DNA of 64,000 nt, taken from the NCBI RefSeq assembly GCF_008365385.1, contig NZ_QOVF01000001.1, positions 558,001 to 622,000 on the forward strand, given 5' to 3'. The translations under genes were made by a program, and so were the position numbers. Positions 1,331 to 6,491 of this stretch are shown piece by piece. The stretch comes from Halopseudomonas laoshanensis. GTDB lineage: Bacteria > Pseudomonadota > Gammaproteobacteria > Pseudomonadales > Pseudomonadaceae. Numbering within the stretch: the first letter of the stretch is position 1; every line of letters begins with the position of its first letter. The notes beneath the pieces were generated by a model that did no database searches, was not told the origin of the DNA, and saw only the letters and a list, made by a program, of their open reading frames with translations.

Positions 1331-1346
1331 GCTCGAAGAGCCTATC
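1326..1346. terminator. hairpin shared by two convergent genes
   Basis: Perfect 9-bp stem GATAGGCTC / GAGCCTATC around a GAA loop. It overlaps the stop codon of the GGDEF-EAL gene (1328-1330) and that of the antiporter gene on the other strand. No T-tract follows on either side, so it is a weak or Rho-assisted bidirectional terminator, or a 3' end stabiliser. Confidence 0.5.
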
Positions 1347-3066
1347 AAGTCGGCTCCGGGATCAGGCCGATGGTGACGATTCTGGCGTCGATCATATCGC
1401 GTACGGTCAAGATCACACCGTCCAGCGTAACCGATGTGCCGATTTGCACTTCTCGCAGCTCTTCGGACATCGTCTGGCGCACCAGGGCTTCGAGCGTCAG
1501 CAAGTCATCAGCGGCGAGGATGATGCCGTAGGAGGAACGAATGTCATCCACAGTGGTTGAGCCCTTCAGGCGCAGTTCTCGGCTGGGTAGCTCGTTGCGA
1601 GCAGCCTCCAACGCCTGGGAAAAGACCGAATCGACAAAGGGCCTGGTTTCCGGACGCAGCACCACAAACAGGTGATCGCCAGCCTGCAACGCAGTCGATC
1701 CGCGTGGTGGGATGACCAGGCTCTTGCGGGTGATCATGGCGACCACGGTGCCATCCGGCAACGCCATCTGCGACAGTCTGCGGCCCACTGCACGACCATT
1801 GGCGCCCAATGTGTACTCGACGATATCCGCATCCACGTCGCCCAGCGCGGTAATTTCCAGAGTAGCTGCCGGCGTAGCGGGCGGCTTTTCCGTCAGCCCC
1901 AGCTTGCGCGCTACCCAGGGCAGAGTTGAGCCCTGGATGGTGGCAGAAATCAACACCACGAAGAACACCACGTTGAAGATCAGCTCTGCGCCGGGTAGCC
2001 CGAACATCAGAGGAAATATTGCCAGGATAATCGGTACCGAACCGCGCAGTCCGACCCAGGATACCAAGGCTATTTCCGCTTTTTTAAAGCCGAAGAGCGC
2101 GAGTATGGGCACCACTGCCAGCGGCCGGGCGACCAGCACCAGAACGGCAGCGATTACCAGCCCCTCAAGCCAGACCTCGAATAATGACGGTGGGTTGATC
2201 AGCAGACCGAGTACCACGAACATGGTGATCTGGCTAAGCCAGGCCAACCCGTCATGAAATAGAAAGGTACTGCGCTGGAACACAAAGCGGCTATTGCCGA
2301 TCACTACCCCGGCAAGGAAGATCGCCAGAAAGCCACTGCCGTTCAGGTTCGCTGCCAGCCCGAACGCGAGCAAGCCACAGGCTGCCACCATTACCGGGTA
2401 CAGGCCGGAAGCGACAAGGTGGATACGGTTGATGATCTGCACCGATGCCCAGCCCACGCCCAGACCCACCGCAGCGCCCACGCCCATTTGCAGCAGAAAC
2501 ATCTGCAGCAGCCCCACACCGGGCTCCATGTCATTGACCAGTATTTCCAGCAGGCCAACGGTCAGGAAGATGGCCATCGGATCGTTCGAGGCGCTTTCTA
2601 TTTCCAGGGTCGCCTTCAGGCGTTCGCGAATATGGATGCCTGCATTACGCAGCAGCGAGAATACAGCGGCAGCATCGGTCGAGCCGACGATCGCGCCCAG
2701 CAGCAGACCCTCCATGATGGGCAAGTCGAGCACATAAGCGGCTGCCACGCCGGTCACGGCCGCCGTTATCAATACGCCCAGGGTGGCCAGCAGGGATGCC
2801 GGCTTCCAGACTTTCTTGATCGACGCCGTAGGCGTTTGCAGCCCACCGTCAAACAGAATAATCGCCAGCGCCAGGGTGCCCAGTGCATGGGCTGCGCCTG
2901 GACTATTGAAGCTGACACCGCCGATACCCGCGTCACCGGCGAGCATGCCGATCAGCAGGAACAGCACCAGCACTGGCAGCCCAAGGCGCGCCGAGAGTTT
3001 GCTTGAGGCTATGCCAAACAGAATCAGTATCGCAGCCAGTAGAATCAATTGGTCAATCAGGAACAT
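1345..3066 (-). CDS. nhaP2: K+(Na+)/H+ antiporter, NhaP2/CvrA type
   Basis: Inner-membrane cation/proton antiporter of the CPA1 NhaP2 (CvrA) type, which exports K+ (and in some members Na+) in exchange for protons. About the first 390 residues are hydrophobic with about 12 membrane spans and contain the transport-site motif SNDPMAIF. The cytoplasmic tail has a TrkA-C/RCK-C-like regulatory domain and a CorC/HlyC-like end. The 573-residue length matches E. coli NhaP2 (578). The ATG at 3066 is chosen because GAGGTAAG lies 8 nt upstream; an in-frame extension to 3099 has no such site and overlaps a terminator hairpin. It follows secDF by 61 nt on the same strand. Ion specificity is inferred from the family only. 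Confidence 0.9.
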   Translation of the reverse strand: MFLIDQLILLAAILILFGIASSKLSARLGLPVLVLFLLIGMLAGDAGIGGVSFNSPGAAHALGTLALAIILFDGGLQTPTASIKKVWKPASLLATLGVLITAAVTGVAAAYVLDLPIMEGLLLGAIVGSTDAAAVFSLLRNAGIHIRERLKATLEIESASNDPMAIFLTVGLLEILVNDMEPGVGLLQMFLLQMGVGAAVGLGVGWASVQIINRIHLVASGLYPVMVAACGLLAFGLAANLNGSGFLAIFLAGVVIGNSRFVFQRSTFLFHDGLAWLSQITMFVVLGLLINPPSLFEVWLEGLVIAAVLVLVARPLAVVPILALFGFKKAEIALVSWVGLRGSVPIILAIFPLMFGLPGAELIFNVVFFVVLISATIQGSTLPWVARKLGLTEKPPATPAATLEITALGDVDADIVEYTLGANGRAVGRRLSQMALPDGTVVAMITRKSLVIPPRGSTALQAGDHLFVVLRPETRPFVDSVFSQALEAARNELPSRELRLKGSTTVDDIRSSYGIILAADDLLTLEALVRQTMSEELREVQIGTSVTLDGVILTVRDMIDARIVTIGLIPEPT

Positions 3067-3084
3067 GCGTGGTCTTACCTCGTT

Positions 3085-3121
3085 GAAAACGGCCGCCACC
3101 CACCGGGCTAGAGGGTGGCGG
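3085..3121 (-). terminator. intrinsic terminator after secDF
   Basis: Minus-strand stem CCGCCACCC / GGGTGGCGG (9 bp, arms 3113-3121 and 3093-3101) just after the secDF stop codon, followed by CCGTTTTC. It probably ends or attenuates secDF transcription before the antiporter gene. Confidence 0.6.
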
Positions 3122-3127
3122 TGCTCG

Positions 3128-5650
3128 TTAGGGTATCAGGTCCAGCTCTTTTCTGATTTGTTCCGCACTGGGGCGTAACTGGGCGCCGCCGTTACGCATC
3201 CGCCGCTGGCCCAGGTAAAACAGAATGGGCGCGGCAATCAGTATTGACGAGCTGGTACCCACGACAATGCCGAACAGCATGGGCAACGCGAAGCTGGCCA
3301 CGGCTGCGCCGCCGGCTATAGCCATCGGCAGCAAGGCGAGAAAGGTGGTCAGCGAGGTGAACACCGTACGGGTCAGCGTCGAGGTGATGCTCTCGTTGAG
3401 CAATTGTAAAAGCGGCTTGTCGGGCGTAAGGCGCAGGTTTTCCCGTACCCGGTCGAATACCACGACCTTGTCATTGATCGAATAACCGATCAATGCCAGC
3501 AGGGCGGCCACTGCCGTGAGATTGAACTCGACGCCAGCGAGAACAAAAAAGCCGATGGTCTTGGTCAGATCCAGTGCAATGGTCAGCGTTGCGGCCAGGG
3601 CGAAGTGGTACTCAAAGCGGATCCACAGATAAACCAGCATGCCGGCTGCGGCCAGCAGCACTGCCATGATACTGGCCTGGACAAAGTCGCCGCTGACCTT
3701 GGGGCCTACCATCTCCACCCTGGGGAAGCTGGCATCTGCGGCCAGTTCGGTAACCGCCTGTTTCAGTGTTTCCACCGGCGCGCCCGAGGCTACCTGTTCA
3801 GCTCCCTGCATCGGCAGGCGGACCAGATACTGGCCTGCGTCACCCGACTCCTGGATGGCCGCCTGGCCGAGACCATGTTCCTGCAGGCTGGTGCGCAGCT
3901 GCTCTACCGTGGTATCAGGCGCTTGCACTTCCACCAGGGTGCCGCCGGTAAAATCGATGCCATAGTCCAGCCCCGGACCGAAAAACAGCGCTAATGAGCC
4001 AACCGAGAGTACCAGGGACAGCATCAGGCCCATCACCCGGCCCCGCATCAGATTCAGACTGCCGCTGGTGAGGTTGTCGAGCCGCTTGATGCCAGATATC
4101 ACCAACGGGCGTCTGCCCATACGCCGTACGCGCCATTCCATCAGTAACCGGGTCACCGCAATGGCGGTAAACATTGACGTCAGCAAGCCGATCCCTATGG
4201 TTACCGCAAAGCCCTTGACCGGGCCGTTTCCGAAAAGGAACAGCAGGCTGACGGCTATCAGCGTAGTGGCGTTGGAGTCCAGAATGGTGCTGTAGGCGCG
4301 GTTGAAGCCTTCGCTCATGGCGCCAAAGGCGGACTTGCCGTTACGGGTCTCCTCGCGGATGCGCTCATTGATCAGGATATTGGCATCCACCGCCATGCCG
4401 ATACTCAGAATGATACCGGCGATGCCGGGCAGGGTGAGTGTGGCACCCAGCAGGCTGAGTATGCCGAAGATCAAGCCGACGTTGATGCTCAGGCCCACGC
4501 AGGCGATAAAACCCCAGCGGCCGTACACCGCCAGCATGAAGCCGATAACCAGCAGAGCGCCGAAAACCCCGGTACTGATGCCCATGGCGATCGCGTCACT
4601 GCCCAGGTCCGGCCCGACAGTGCGCTCTTCTATGACTTTCAGCGGAGCGGGCAGGGCGCCGGCCCGCAATAGCAGAGCCAGATTGCTGGCCTCACTGGCG
4701 CTGAATGCGCCGCTGATTTCACCACTGCCGCCAGCGATTACACCGCGGATCACGGGTGCGGTGATGACCTTCTGATCCAGCACTATGGCCAGCGACCGGC
4801 CGATGTTGGCACGGGTCATGTCTCCGAACAGATCGGTCCCCTCGCGGTCCAGCTTGAAATTGACCACCGGTTGGCCGGAGTCGGGATTGAATGCCAACTG
4901 GGCATCGCGAATATGCTTGCCCTCCATGGCGACCTGCTCCTCCAGCTCATACGCGGTGCCTTGTGCCTGATCTTCAAGGGTAATGACCTGCCGCGATTTG
5001 CCGTTTGCCGCCCAGTGAAAGGTCATTTTTGCGGTCGTACCCAGTAACTGACGTATCTCCTGCGGATTCGCCACACCGGGCATCTGCACCAGAATGCCGT
5101 CGGCGCCCTGGCGGGTAATGCTTGGCTCTACCAGCCCGGTTTCATCCAGCCGGCGACGCACCACTTCCAGGCTGCGATCTACTGCATCACTGGTCAGCGC
5201 CTCACGGTGCGCGTCAGTCATGTGCAATATCCATTGGTTCTTGTTCTGCGCCTGTTCCAGCTTAAAGCGGGTGCCGGGCTCTCCAGGTTGCGAATTAAGC
5301 GACAGGGCAATGCGCTTTAAATCAGGGTTGTCGCGCGTATGTCTGACCGCGATCTGGACTGATTCGATTGAGGCCGCCGGCTGGGTAAAAGCAATGCGCT
5401 CCTTGCGCAAGGCGGCGGTCAGATCATTGGCCAACTGCTGGTTATCGTTGCGCAGCAGCTCGCGGGTATCGACCTCCAGCAGCAGATGCGATCCCCCGCG
5501 CAGATCCAGGCCAAGCGCCAGGTTGTTATCGGTATACCAGCGGGGTAGTTGTTGTGACACCGAAGTGGGCAGCACATTGGGCAAGGCGCAGAGCAGCCCG
5601 AACAGCATTATCAGGCCGTAAAGCACGGCCCGTGAAGACAAAGATTTCAT
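3128..5650 (-). CDS. secDF: fused SecDF protein-export protein
   Basis: Single 840-residue chain joining SecD (about 1-510) and SecF (about 535-830), which use the proton or sodium motive force to pull secreted proteins through SecYEG. SecD shows its first membrane span (9-27), the periplasmic P1 region, and the ion-pathway motif GMAVDANIL (Asp422). SecF shows DYGIDFTGGTLVEV (562-575) and GYSINDKVVVFDRVREN (722-738). Two SecF positions are unusual: the HD of E. coli SecF (AHDVIITLG) is LD here (ALDLTKTIG), and Lys728 follows Asn-Asp where Ser or Thr is usual. Pseudomonads normally carry separate secD and secF beside yajC, so this fused gene is probably a second, specialised copy; the main copy is not in the window. 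The start (ATG 5648-5650, GAGGA upstream) lies inside an inverted repeat shared with the preceding small ORF. Confidence 0.95.
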   Translation of the reverse strand: MKSLSSRAVLYGLIMLFGLLCALPNVLPTSVSQQLPRWYTDNNLALGLDLRGGSHLLLEVDTRELLRNDNQQLANDLTAALRKERIAFTQPAASIESVQIAVRHTRDNPDLKRIALSLNSQPGEPGTRFKLEQAQNKNQWILHMTDAHREALTSDAVDRSLEVVRRRLDETGLVEPSITRQGADGILVQMPGVANPQEIRQLLGTTAKMTFHWAANGKSRQVITLEDQAQGTAYELEEQVAMEGKHIRDAQLAFNPDSGQPVVNFKLDREGTDLFGDMTRANIGRSLAIVLDQKVITAPVIRGVIAGGSGEISGAFSASEASNLALLLRAGALPAPLKVIEERTVGPDLGSDAIAMGISTGVFGALLVIGFMLAVYGRWGFIACVGLSINVGLIFGILSLLGATLTLPGIAGIILSIGMAVDANILINERIREETRNGKSAFGAMSEGFNRAYSTILDSNATTLIAVSLLFLFGNGPVKGFAVTIGIGLLTSMFTAIAVTRLLMEWRVRRMGRRPLVISGIKRLDNLTSGSLNLMRGRVMGLMLSLVLSVGSLALFFGPGLDYGIDFTGGTLVEVQAPDTTVEQLRTSLQEHGLGQAAIQESGDAGQYLVRLPMQGAEQVASGAPVETLKQAVTELAADASFPRVEMVGPKVSGDFVQASIMAVLLAAAGMLVYLWIRFEYHFALAATLTIALDLTKTIGFFVLAGVEFNLTAVAALLALIGYSINDKVVVFDRVRENLRLTPDKPLLQLLNESITSTLTRTVFTSLTTFLALLPMAIAGGAAVASFALPMLFGIVVGTSSSILIAAPILFYLGQRRMRNGGAQLRPSAEQIRKELDLIP

Positions 5651-5715
5651 GTGTAATCCTCGACACTAACGTCGTAGTTTCAGAACTTACGGGTGTGGTC
5701 AGCTGGGATTACACA
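5650..5715 (-). promoter_or_regulatory. inverted repeat hiding the secDF start site
   Basis: On the minus-strand mRNA, TGTGTAATCC (5715 to 5706) is perfectly complementary to GGATTACACA (5659 to 5650), with a 46-nt loop. The first arm contains the stop codon (TAA) of the upstream small ORF. The second contains part of the GAGGA ribosome binding site (5657-5661) and the first base of the secDF ATG. Folding would block secDF translation, and a ribosome standing at the end of the upstream ORF would open it. Arms and positions are read directly; the switch is inference. Confidence 0.7.
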
Positions 5716-6110
5716 GAGGGTGGGGCGCGCGGAGCCTGCTGGAAGAGGTTGCCATGGTAGGAACTGAGAACGGCTCTGGGCGCCATTAGACCAGGAAGGG
5801 GTAGTGGCGGATGCAACGTAAAAAGCTGCGTCGCAATGGCTAGCCATTGGGGGTCCGGATCGCCGTCATCACCGAGCAGGTCAGCTGCACGCGGCAGAAT
5901 ACGAGCTGGATCGCTGTTGCCGGCAAAAACAAAGTGCTCGATCTGGCTGACATAACCGGAACCGACTGCCGCCTTGGCGCCGAAGGAAGCCGAGTTGATG
6001 CACAGCGCCAATCCCACAAACAGCAGCCACAGCAACGGCAGCCTGGCCAGTGCCGAGACTGGGGCTGGATCACAGGGACCTGGTGTAAGGGCTCTGGACA
6101 TGCAGGGCAT
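5709..6110 (-). CDS. putative secretory arrest peptide (VemP/ApdP-like) controlling secDF
   Basis: A 133-residue protein not recognised by homology. It has a positively charged N-terminus and one hydrophobic segment (about residues 24-40, LPLLWLLFVGLALCI) like a signal sequence or anchor, then a low-hydrophobicity stretch, then a C-terminus ending APRAPPSV, with RAPP at 128-131. RAPP is the core of known force-sensitive arrest peptides (ApdA, ApdP), and secretory arrest peptides SecM and VemP sit directly upstream of secA and secDF2. This ORF ends 58 nt before secDF, with its stop codon inside the hairpin that masks the secDF start. Inference: it monitors Sec export and raises secDF translation when export is slow. 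The start is uncertain (ATG 6110 or 6101; neither has a good ribosome binding site). Confidence 0.7.
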   Translation of the reverse strand: MPCMSRALTPGPCDPAPVSALARLPLLWLLFVGLALCINSASFGAKAAVGSGYVSQIEHFVFAGNSDPARILPRAADLLGDDGDPDPQWLAIATQLFTLHPPLPLPGLMAPRAVLSSYHGNLFQQAPRAPPSV

Positions 6111-6243: not shown

Positions 6244-6372
6244 ATGCAACTCATGTCAGACCACCACACCATCACCCGCAGTGCTTCACGCACTGGGTCG
6301 GTGTGCGCGCTGACGGCAATGGTTGGCGGGTATTTCTATTTTGGGTATTGGTTTAGCCGCATGCGCGCCTGA
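6244..6372 (+). CDS. aromatic amino acid leader peptide (attenuator)
   Basis: A 42-codon ORF with a good ribosome binding site (GGAG at 6234-6237, 6 nt spacing). Codons 30-37 read Y F Y F G Y W F: seven aromatic codons of eight. It is followed by an intrinsic terminator at 6417-6451 and then by a DAHP synthase gene. This is the arrangement of transcription attenuation (as in pheL or trpL): when charged Tyr, Phe or Trp tRNA is scarce, the ribosome pauses on these codons and the terminator does not form. GGGTAT at 6343-6348, within the Gly34-Tyr35 codons, can pair with ATACCC at 6372-6377 just past the stop, giving a first hairpin that a paused ribosome would disrupt. The exact antiterminator partner was not resolved. 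Confidence 0.85.
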   Translation: MQLMSDHHTITRSASRTGSVCALTAMVGGYFYFGYWFSRMRA

Positions 6373-6416
6373 TACCCCAGCAGGCGCCCGGTTCAAGGGT
6401 CGCCACCAGCAGTTTC

Positions 6417-6451
6417 AAAACCCCGGTCGGCTTCCCGCCCGGGGTTTTTTT
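6417..6451 (+). terminator. attenuator terminator before DAHP synthase
   Basis: AAAACCCCGG (6417-6426) pairs with CCGGGGTTTT (6439-6448), with extra CGG/CCG pairs inside the loop and a run of seven T at 6445-6451. It lies 45 nt after the aromatic leader peptide and about 185 nt before the biosynthetic gene, so readthrough is required for expression. Confidence 0.88.
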
Positions 6452-6491
6452 ATGTCCGACAATTTGATGTTTTGCTAACGAGGATTTGATC

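Follow-up and report, generated by a model that had tools for sequence, protein, structure and literature searches.

A short open reading frame (ORF) ending in QQAPRAPPSV* lies 58 nucleotides (nt) ahead of a fused secDF gene in Halopseudomonas laoshanensis, and the question raised by this locus is whether the encoded peptide monitors protein export and sets the level of SecDF. The stretch analysed (the window, 64,000 nt; contig NZ_QOVF01000001.1, positions 558,001 to 622,000) had been inspected before, and this sequence-only reading had proposed a putative secretory arrest peptide with RAPP before secDF, recognised in no described family and possibly evolved independently. The proposal itself stands, whereas the two claims of novelty had to be given up (see below). 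From sequence and by analogy, the peptide, here called the leader, is very likely an arrest peptide that monitors Sec and would increase SecDF2, the product of the fused gene, on export failure.

The leader ORF, its signal-like hydrophobic segment (LPLLWLLFVGLALCI, in the N-terminal region) and its ...APRAPPSV ending were all recovered in the translation as previously described, with the strand, which had not been given, being the minus strand. Translation can start at the ATG at 6110 (133 amino acids (aa)) or at the ATG at 6101 (130 aa); the latter is likelier because GGA stands a few bases 5' of it and because relative P0001, which is 97% identical, starts there. About 90 residues separate the signal from RAPP. 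The fused secDF is the next gene on the minus strand, as the earlier reading had it, and carries the Pfam domains listed in the table below. Separate secD and secF genes are encoded on another contig of the same genome (best stretches 50% and 39% identical), so the fused gene constitutes the genome's second SecDF set. A second sensor ahead of secA was also considered, and none was seen: among open frames of 90 aa or more ahead of secA in this genome, not one has such a C-terminal motif.

For the comparison across species, a total of 82 secDF2 loci from gammaproteobacteria (that of the window, those of five genomes in its genus, and 45 of 80, 29, and 2 loci from three further searches) were pooled and clustered at 95% DNA identity, and the resulting 67 clusters were used as the non-redundant set. 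A locus was scored as having a leader if a frame of 100 aa or more, with its end near secDF, contained [RQH][AGS]PP in its last 16 residues. The homologue search for short RAPP-ending ORFs before secDF that had been suggested with the sequence-only reading was thereby answered in the positive, as a RAPP-like leader was present in 62 of the 67 loci. The motif read RAPP in 54 leaders, RGPP in three, RSPP and HAPP in two each, and QAPP in one, i.e., R was found in 59/62 and A in 57/62, and it is retained where the remaining leader diverges (at most 1.33 bits of information at each position from -20 to -5). All six secDF2 loci of the window's genus end in RAPPxx, and the relatives P0001, P0002, and P0003 (97, 78, and 56% identical) end in RAPPSV, RAPPSA, and RAPPLV, respectively. 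An N-terminal hydrophobic peak (15-residue mean of at least 1.6) was detected in 61/62 leaders, and the spacer between signal and motif had a median of 88 residues (range 26-109, with one or more leaders below 30). Of the other five loci, two (L017 and L109) terminate in degenerate sequences (PRAAPQANFA and PRDPPTT), L043 lacks a leader of this type, and for L034 and L051 the upstream DNA is too short for a judgement.

Some loci needed individual decisions. L020 was counted by its frame ending in RAPP and not by an alternative QAPP frame, and L110 (RSPP followed by nine residues, weak hydrophobic segment) was kept in the count though possibly due to chance. The leader of G013 was located by position only. 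A small-protein search for the leader gave matches in 6 of 58 genomes, of which the one in G035, with E 0.003 and within a frame of 358 aa, appears spurious. Of eight new class-level loci, six were excluded, as their identity was 39-43% with one internal stop and they presumably represent separate secD and secF. The 35 alphaproteobacterial loci were kept apart as controls, and L086 was skipped for want of upstream DNA. In these controls, the leader rule was satisfied at 1 of the remaining 34 loci; it was also satisfied at 1 of 255 random antisense anchors, and among the window's 494 open frames that are bounded by stops and 60 aa or longer, RAPP occurred once, in the leader ORF itself. With these counts, a chance occurrence of RAPP was rejected.

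Judged by its codons, the leader is under purifying, protein-level selection. Between the window leader and that of its nearest relative, G026, 11 synonymous and 5 non-synonymous differences were counted, with a ratio of non-synonymous to synonymous substitution rates (dN/dS) of 0.16. Codon conservation at the C-terminus, likewise suggested earlier as a check, was compared in 11 leader pairs: the last 12 codons had zero non-synonymous change in 7 of them and some in the other four (window/G024, G018/G028, L029/L035, and L036/L037). Three Marinobacter pairs, when pooled, had 10 synonymous and 0 non-synonymous changes in the last 12 codons, and 119.5 and 167.5, respectively, over the whole 125 codons.

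An RNA switch that might couple arrest to secDF is present at the leader-secDF junction and had been overlooked by the sequence-only reading. It consists of an arm complementary to the Shine-Dalgarno (SD) region (anti-SD arm, TGTGTAATCC) and the SD arm (GGATTACACA), which form a perfect 10-nt inverted repeat with arms 46 nt apart. In 5640-5730, no other inverted repeat of 8 nt or more was reported, and the predicted fold of the junction has an energy of -21.6 kcal/mol (z -2.99). No Rfam family matched the junction. The footprint of a ribosome extends to about +16. If the ribosome stalls as predicted, with P130 (5723-5721) occupying the P site and P131 the A site, the anti-SD arm would fall on the downstream side of this footprint; the predicted stall position is taken over from ApdA and ApdP (PMC10951233).

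The pairing is kept among relatives through compensatory change, as indicated by several comparisons of the two arms. The stretch from +4 to +36 paired with the SD region beyond dinucleotide shuffles (p <=0.05) in 41/62 loci, compared with 4/62 for a control stretch within the leader. Over all 62 loci, a locus's own arms reached a mean of -14.7 kcal/mol versus -10.0 (standard deviation 0.35) for arms swapped between loci, with 0 of 20,000 permutations being as good, and the advantage of own over swapped arms also held among 34 leaders of less than 50% identity. Joint changes of both arms were seen in L027 (TTTAACTCT/AGAGTTAAA), L041 (GATAACCCTGT/ACAGGAGTTATC), and L044 (GTTCTCC/GGAGAAC). When a ribosome was modelled at RAPP, the cost of opening the SD core dropped by at least 2 kcal/mol in 43/62 loci and rose by that much in none (window: from 8.6 to 4.3 kcal/mol), and the unpaired probability of the SD core rose by more than 0.1 in 36 and dropped in 7. 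Because the anti-SD arm changes along with the SD and lies close to RAPP, selection appears to act on the switch itself and not just on the motif in the peptide.

Features of the leader-secDF2 locus and its downstream gene (positions in the window; (-), minus strand)
Feature	Position	Strand	Remarks
Leader ORF	5709..6110	(-)	Signal-like segment, long spacer, RAPP two residues before the stop; 133 codons (130 from ATG at 6101)
RAPP codons, CGCGCCCCACCC	5718..5729	(-)	Position from sequence
Anti-SD arm, TGTGTAATCC	5706..5715	(-)	Spans the final leader codons and the stop; +9 to +18, counted from the first base of the predicted P-site codon
SD arm, GGATTACACA	5650..5659	(-)	secDF Shine-Dalgarno region through the A of ATG
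Fused secDF (secDF2)	3128..5650	(-)	840 aa; Pfam SecD_SecF_C, SecDF_P1_head, SecD_1st
9-bp GC-rich hairpin, then CCGTTTT	3062-3131	(-)	Between secDF2 and the antiporter gene
Na+/H+-exchanger-type antiporter gene	1345..3099	(-)	PF00999 with TrkA_C; behind secDF2; start at 3066 possible from the relatives' N-termini

The proposed mechanism takes the genes, the motif, the selection on the protein, and the conserved pairing from sequence, and models arrest, release, SD opening, and the rise of SecDF2 on SecM, VemP, and the Alteromonas peptide uDF_RQH. While export works, the pull of Sec on the nascent chain would free the ribosome, the hairpin would close, and secDF2 would be kept low. When export fails, a ribosome stalled at RAPP would cover the anti-SD arm, by which the SD would open and SecDF2 would be made. 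Several points speak against this scheme: with the ribosome modelled in place on the window sequence, the unpaired probability of the SD core drops from 0.28 to 0.03, as a weaker alternative fold takes over; arm pairing is not significant in 21/62 loci, Alteromonas L040 included; the invariance of the prolines follows by construction from a leader rule that requires PP; the secretion signal was judged from hydropathy only; and no sigma-70-like promoter was found where one was looked for 5' of the leader. Should the scheme be correct, the proven Alteromonas-type secDF2 switch would extend to a pseudomonad and to a wide gammaproteobacterial set, with evidence added on the RNA side by an anti-SD arm that co-varies with the SD and sits near RAPP.

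A first alternative is plain translational coupling, in which any ribosome at the leader stop would open the hairpin and let secDF2 be translated, and RAPP and arrest would add little. As the anti-SD arm overlaps the leader stop in the window and in most loci, a terminating ribosome would also cover it. Coupling leaves the retention of RAPP in 62/67 loci unexplained, and nine leaders have a displaced stop (+10 to +25): the duplex is significant in L031, L033, L042, and L044 (and in none of the other five), and the arm centres of these four stay between +12.5 and +18.7 relative to the P site, close to the average of 15.7 for 35 ordinary loci. The slope of arm position on stop position was -0.41 overall, where an arm tracking the stop would give +1. 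Coupling of this kind is considered very unlikely.

A further alternative keeps both the RAPP arrest and its output, secDF2, and changes the signal, for instance to a metal ion, as proposed for CruR-like upstream open reading frames (uORFs). RAPP and RGPP uORFs are described ahead of metal-homeostasis genes as well (PMC12992588), and cation exchangers stand behind secDF2 in 15/65 loci; five near leaders have no invariant Cys or His, though, and the N-terminal hydrophobic peak found in all but one of the 62 leaders, together with the long spacer, is what would be expected of an exported monitor, so that only a slight probability is given to another signal. That RAPP is coincidental in an ordinary small exported protein, or that the ORF is not a gene, would fit the absence of any match to the leader protein in Pfam, NCBIfam, or solved structures, which leaves no family to tell its role. 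This explanation comes close to being refuted by conservation, given the motif in 62/67 loci with controls near zero, the purifying selection, and leaders of different groups that have the C-terminal motif in common and no other detectable similarity, and its probability is regarded as next to negligible.

Behind secDF2, the antiporter gene of the window is a possible operon member. Downstream DNA of 600 nt or more was available for 65 loci, and in 15 of these a same-strand cation exchanger follows secDF2, with the match starting 29 to 365 nt past the secDF stop; six carry a PF00999 antiporter (window, G024, L040, L049, L116, and L138) and nine a PF01699 exchanger (G013, L029, L035, L039, L050, L110, L112, L113, and L117). 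Seven of the 15 calls were made with Pfam and the other eight via tblastn with queries from these loci. TerC (two) and MotA (one) were found behind secDF2 in further loci. The window's genome contains three PF00999 and two PF01699 genes. On the secDF2 tree, each exchanger type requires five changes, and PF01699 was clustered beyond shuffled labels while PF00999 was not. No exchanger match was found in the 34 alphaproteobacterial loci; this control was imperfect, since two of 63 gammaproteobacterial loci, L007 and L012 (both Marinobacter), carry a PF01699-like exchanger 5' of the leader on the same strand. A strict link between exchanger and secDF2 was not found (15/65 loci).

The SecDF1 of Vibrio depends on sodium and its SecDF2 on protons; when salinity is low, the level of SecDF2 is increased by VemP (PMC7897499). 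Because of this ion use and salinity response, a joint response of SecDF2 and antiporter was hypothesised: the leader might govern a cassette of leader, secDF2, and cation exchanger, with export failure read as a lost ion gradient for the first SecDF and answered by turning on a spare SecDF and a gradient-restoring antiporter. The hairpin between secDF2 and the antiporter gene (at 3062-3131; the terminator scan, limited to loops of up to 8, could not report it) might act as a terminator or attenuator and may separate both genes, and since it could end transcription, the cassette is less probable than it would otherwise be; on balance it is rather doubtful. If it were true, the salinity logic of VemP would extend to a horizontally moving gammaproteobacterial cassette and the arrest peptide would become an ion-homeostasis regulator; a true exchanger link could explain why a second SecDF is kept, namely to cope with a changed ion gradient.

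The ancestry of the leader decides the earlier claim of independent evolution, which does not agree with the alignments. The window leader and the Marinobacter leaders are homologous over most of their length (hhalign probability 95%, E 3.7e-8, 111 columns), by which an independent origin in pseudomonads was ruled out. The Zhongshania/Halioglobus leader profile shares only its C-terminal 13-14 columns with the window or Marinobacter leaders, so that leaders at a greater distance may lack a common origin or may have diverged past recognition. When eight leader proteins of other genera were searched in NCBIfam, none passed the cut-off, and two weak matches were far below it. A conserved patch was noted after the signal segment, far from RAPP (GYVSQIEHFVFAGN in the window, GFIGTVDHLVVASH in Marinobacter), and might be a regulatory spacer element.

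At a threshold of E <=1e-150, secDF2 was matched in 6 of the 198 genomes sampled from the family, and these six belong to a single genus. Sampling of the order gave matches in 30 of 390 genomes, and sampling of the class in 9 of 369, where six are presumably separate secD and secF; the window's genome is part of all three counts. In the secDF2 tree (66 of 67 rows, as the extraction of L048 was too short; quick method, without bootstrap), the window, G024, and G018 were placed together (98), and G013, of the same genus, in another group. This placement apart from its own genus suggests horizontal transfer. Leader and secDF2 of L011 (Billgrantia desiderata FB2 contig10) fall inside the Marinobacter clade, which reflects either recent transfer or a contaminated assembly. 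Carriage of the leader on mobile elements was considered as well, and no match to the protein was found among 72,556 plasmid and 50,697 phage records. Next to the locus, a match to the Pseudomonas small RNA P15 (Rfam RF00627, 92 bits, cut-off 70) lies at 6330-6445 on the plus strand, between the leader and a DAHP synthase gene; all five Rfam matches listed are at 6330-6453, on the other strand from the leader.

Contrary to the earlier statement that no described family applied, RAPP-like uORFs of this kind are known as the RQH family, which comprises 11 groups ahead of secDF as well as a group from the window's order before secA, uA_RQH_Pseudomonadales (Fujiwara et al. 2024, PMC10987492). In the literature searched, the names 'uDF_RQH' and 'uA_RQH' were found in PMC10987492 alone, and no work was found joining arrest peptides, ApdP, and Pseudomonas; SecDF2, Pseudomonas, and arrest; secDF and Halopseudomonas; or arrest peptide and Marinobacter. 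The window leader is a uORF of a sec gene, shorter than 300 aa and without known function, has an N-terminal secretion signal or transmembrane segment by hydropathy, a C-terminal RAPP-like motif found in several species of the order, and a spacer between signal and motif of more than 30 residues; by every family criterion applied here, it is a putative RQH member. It is perhaps among the groups of PMC10987492 already, and a Pseudomonadales group would be expected among the 11 that precede secDF.

Compared with individual systems, the leader resembles uA_RQH_Pseudomonadales in its order and motif (R109GPP in the latter, which stalls E. coli and B. subtilis ribosomes; PMC10987492) and differs in preceding secDF instead of secA. 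With ApdP (Alphaproteobacteria) and ApdA (Actinobacteria) it has in common, by description, RAPP near the C-terminus, an N-terminal signal, and its position as uORF of a second secDF; the discoverers found no SD-sequestering hairpin there (PMC7897499), whereas the window has one. The relatives found for the window locus are gammaproteobacterial. A second secDF beside separate secD and secF, as in the window's genome, also characterises the VemP and ApdP systems. By inspection, neither the SecM sequence FxxxxWIxxxxGIRAGP nor an RxxxWKxxNxxY-like sequence as in VemP (PMC10987492) is contained in the window translation, and SecM precedes secA, not secDF. The proposed scheme nevertheless corresponds to those of VemP-secD2F2 in Vibrio and SecM-secA in E. 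coli, in which arrest on export failure opens an SD-masking hairpin of a Sec gene (PMC10987492, PMC7897499). The closest described counterpart is uDF_RQH_Enterobacterales of Alteromonas naphthalenivorans, which was found by experiment to stall ribosomes and induce secDF2 (PMC10987492); by description, both are short secDF2 uORFs with a RAPP-like motif near the C-terminus and a stem-loop over the secDF2 SD, in different host groups and with RGPP there and RAPP in the window. The Alteromonas locus L040 of the present set has a secDF2 55% identical to that of the window and a leader ending in SRAPPVLL. For the experimentally studied peptide, the chain of arrest, release, SD opening, and rise of SecDF2 has been demonstrated: with P127A, the output of a secDF2 reporter decreased about 5.6-fold, an effect that was offset by disrupting stem-loop 2 (PMC10987492).

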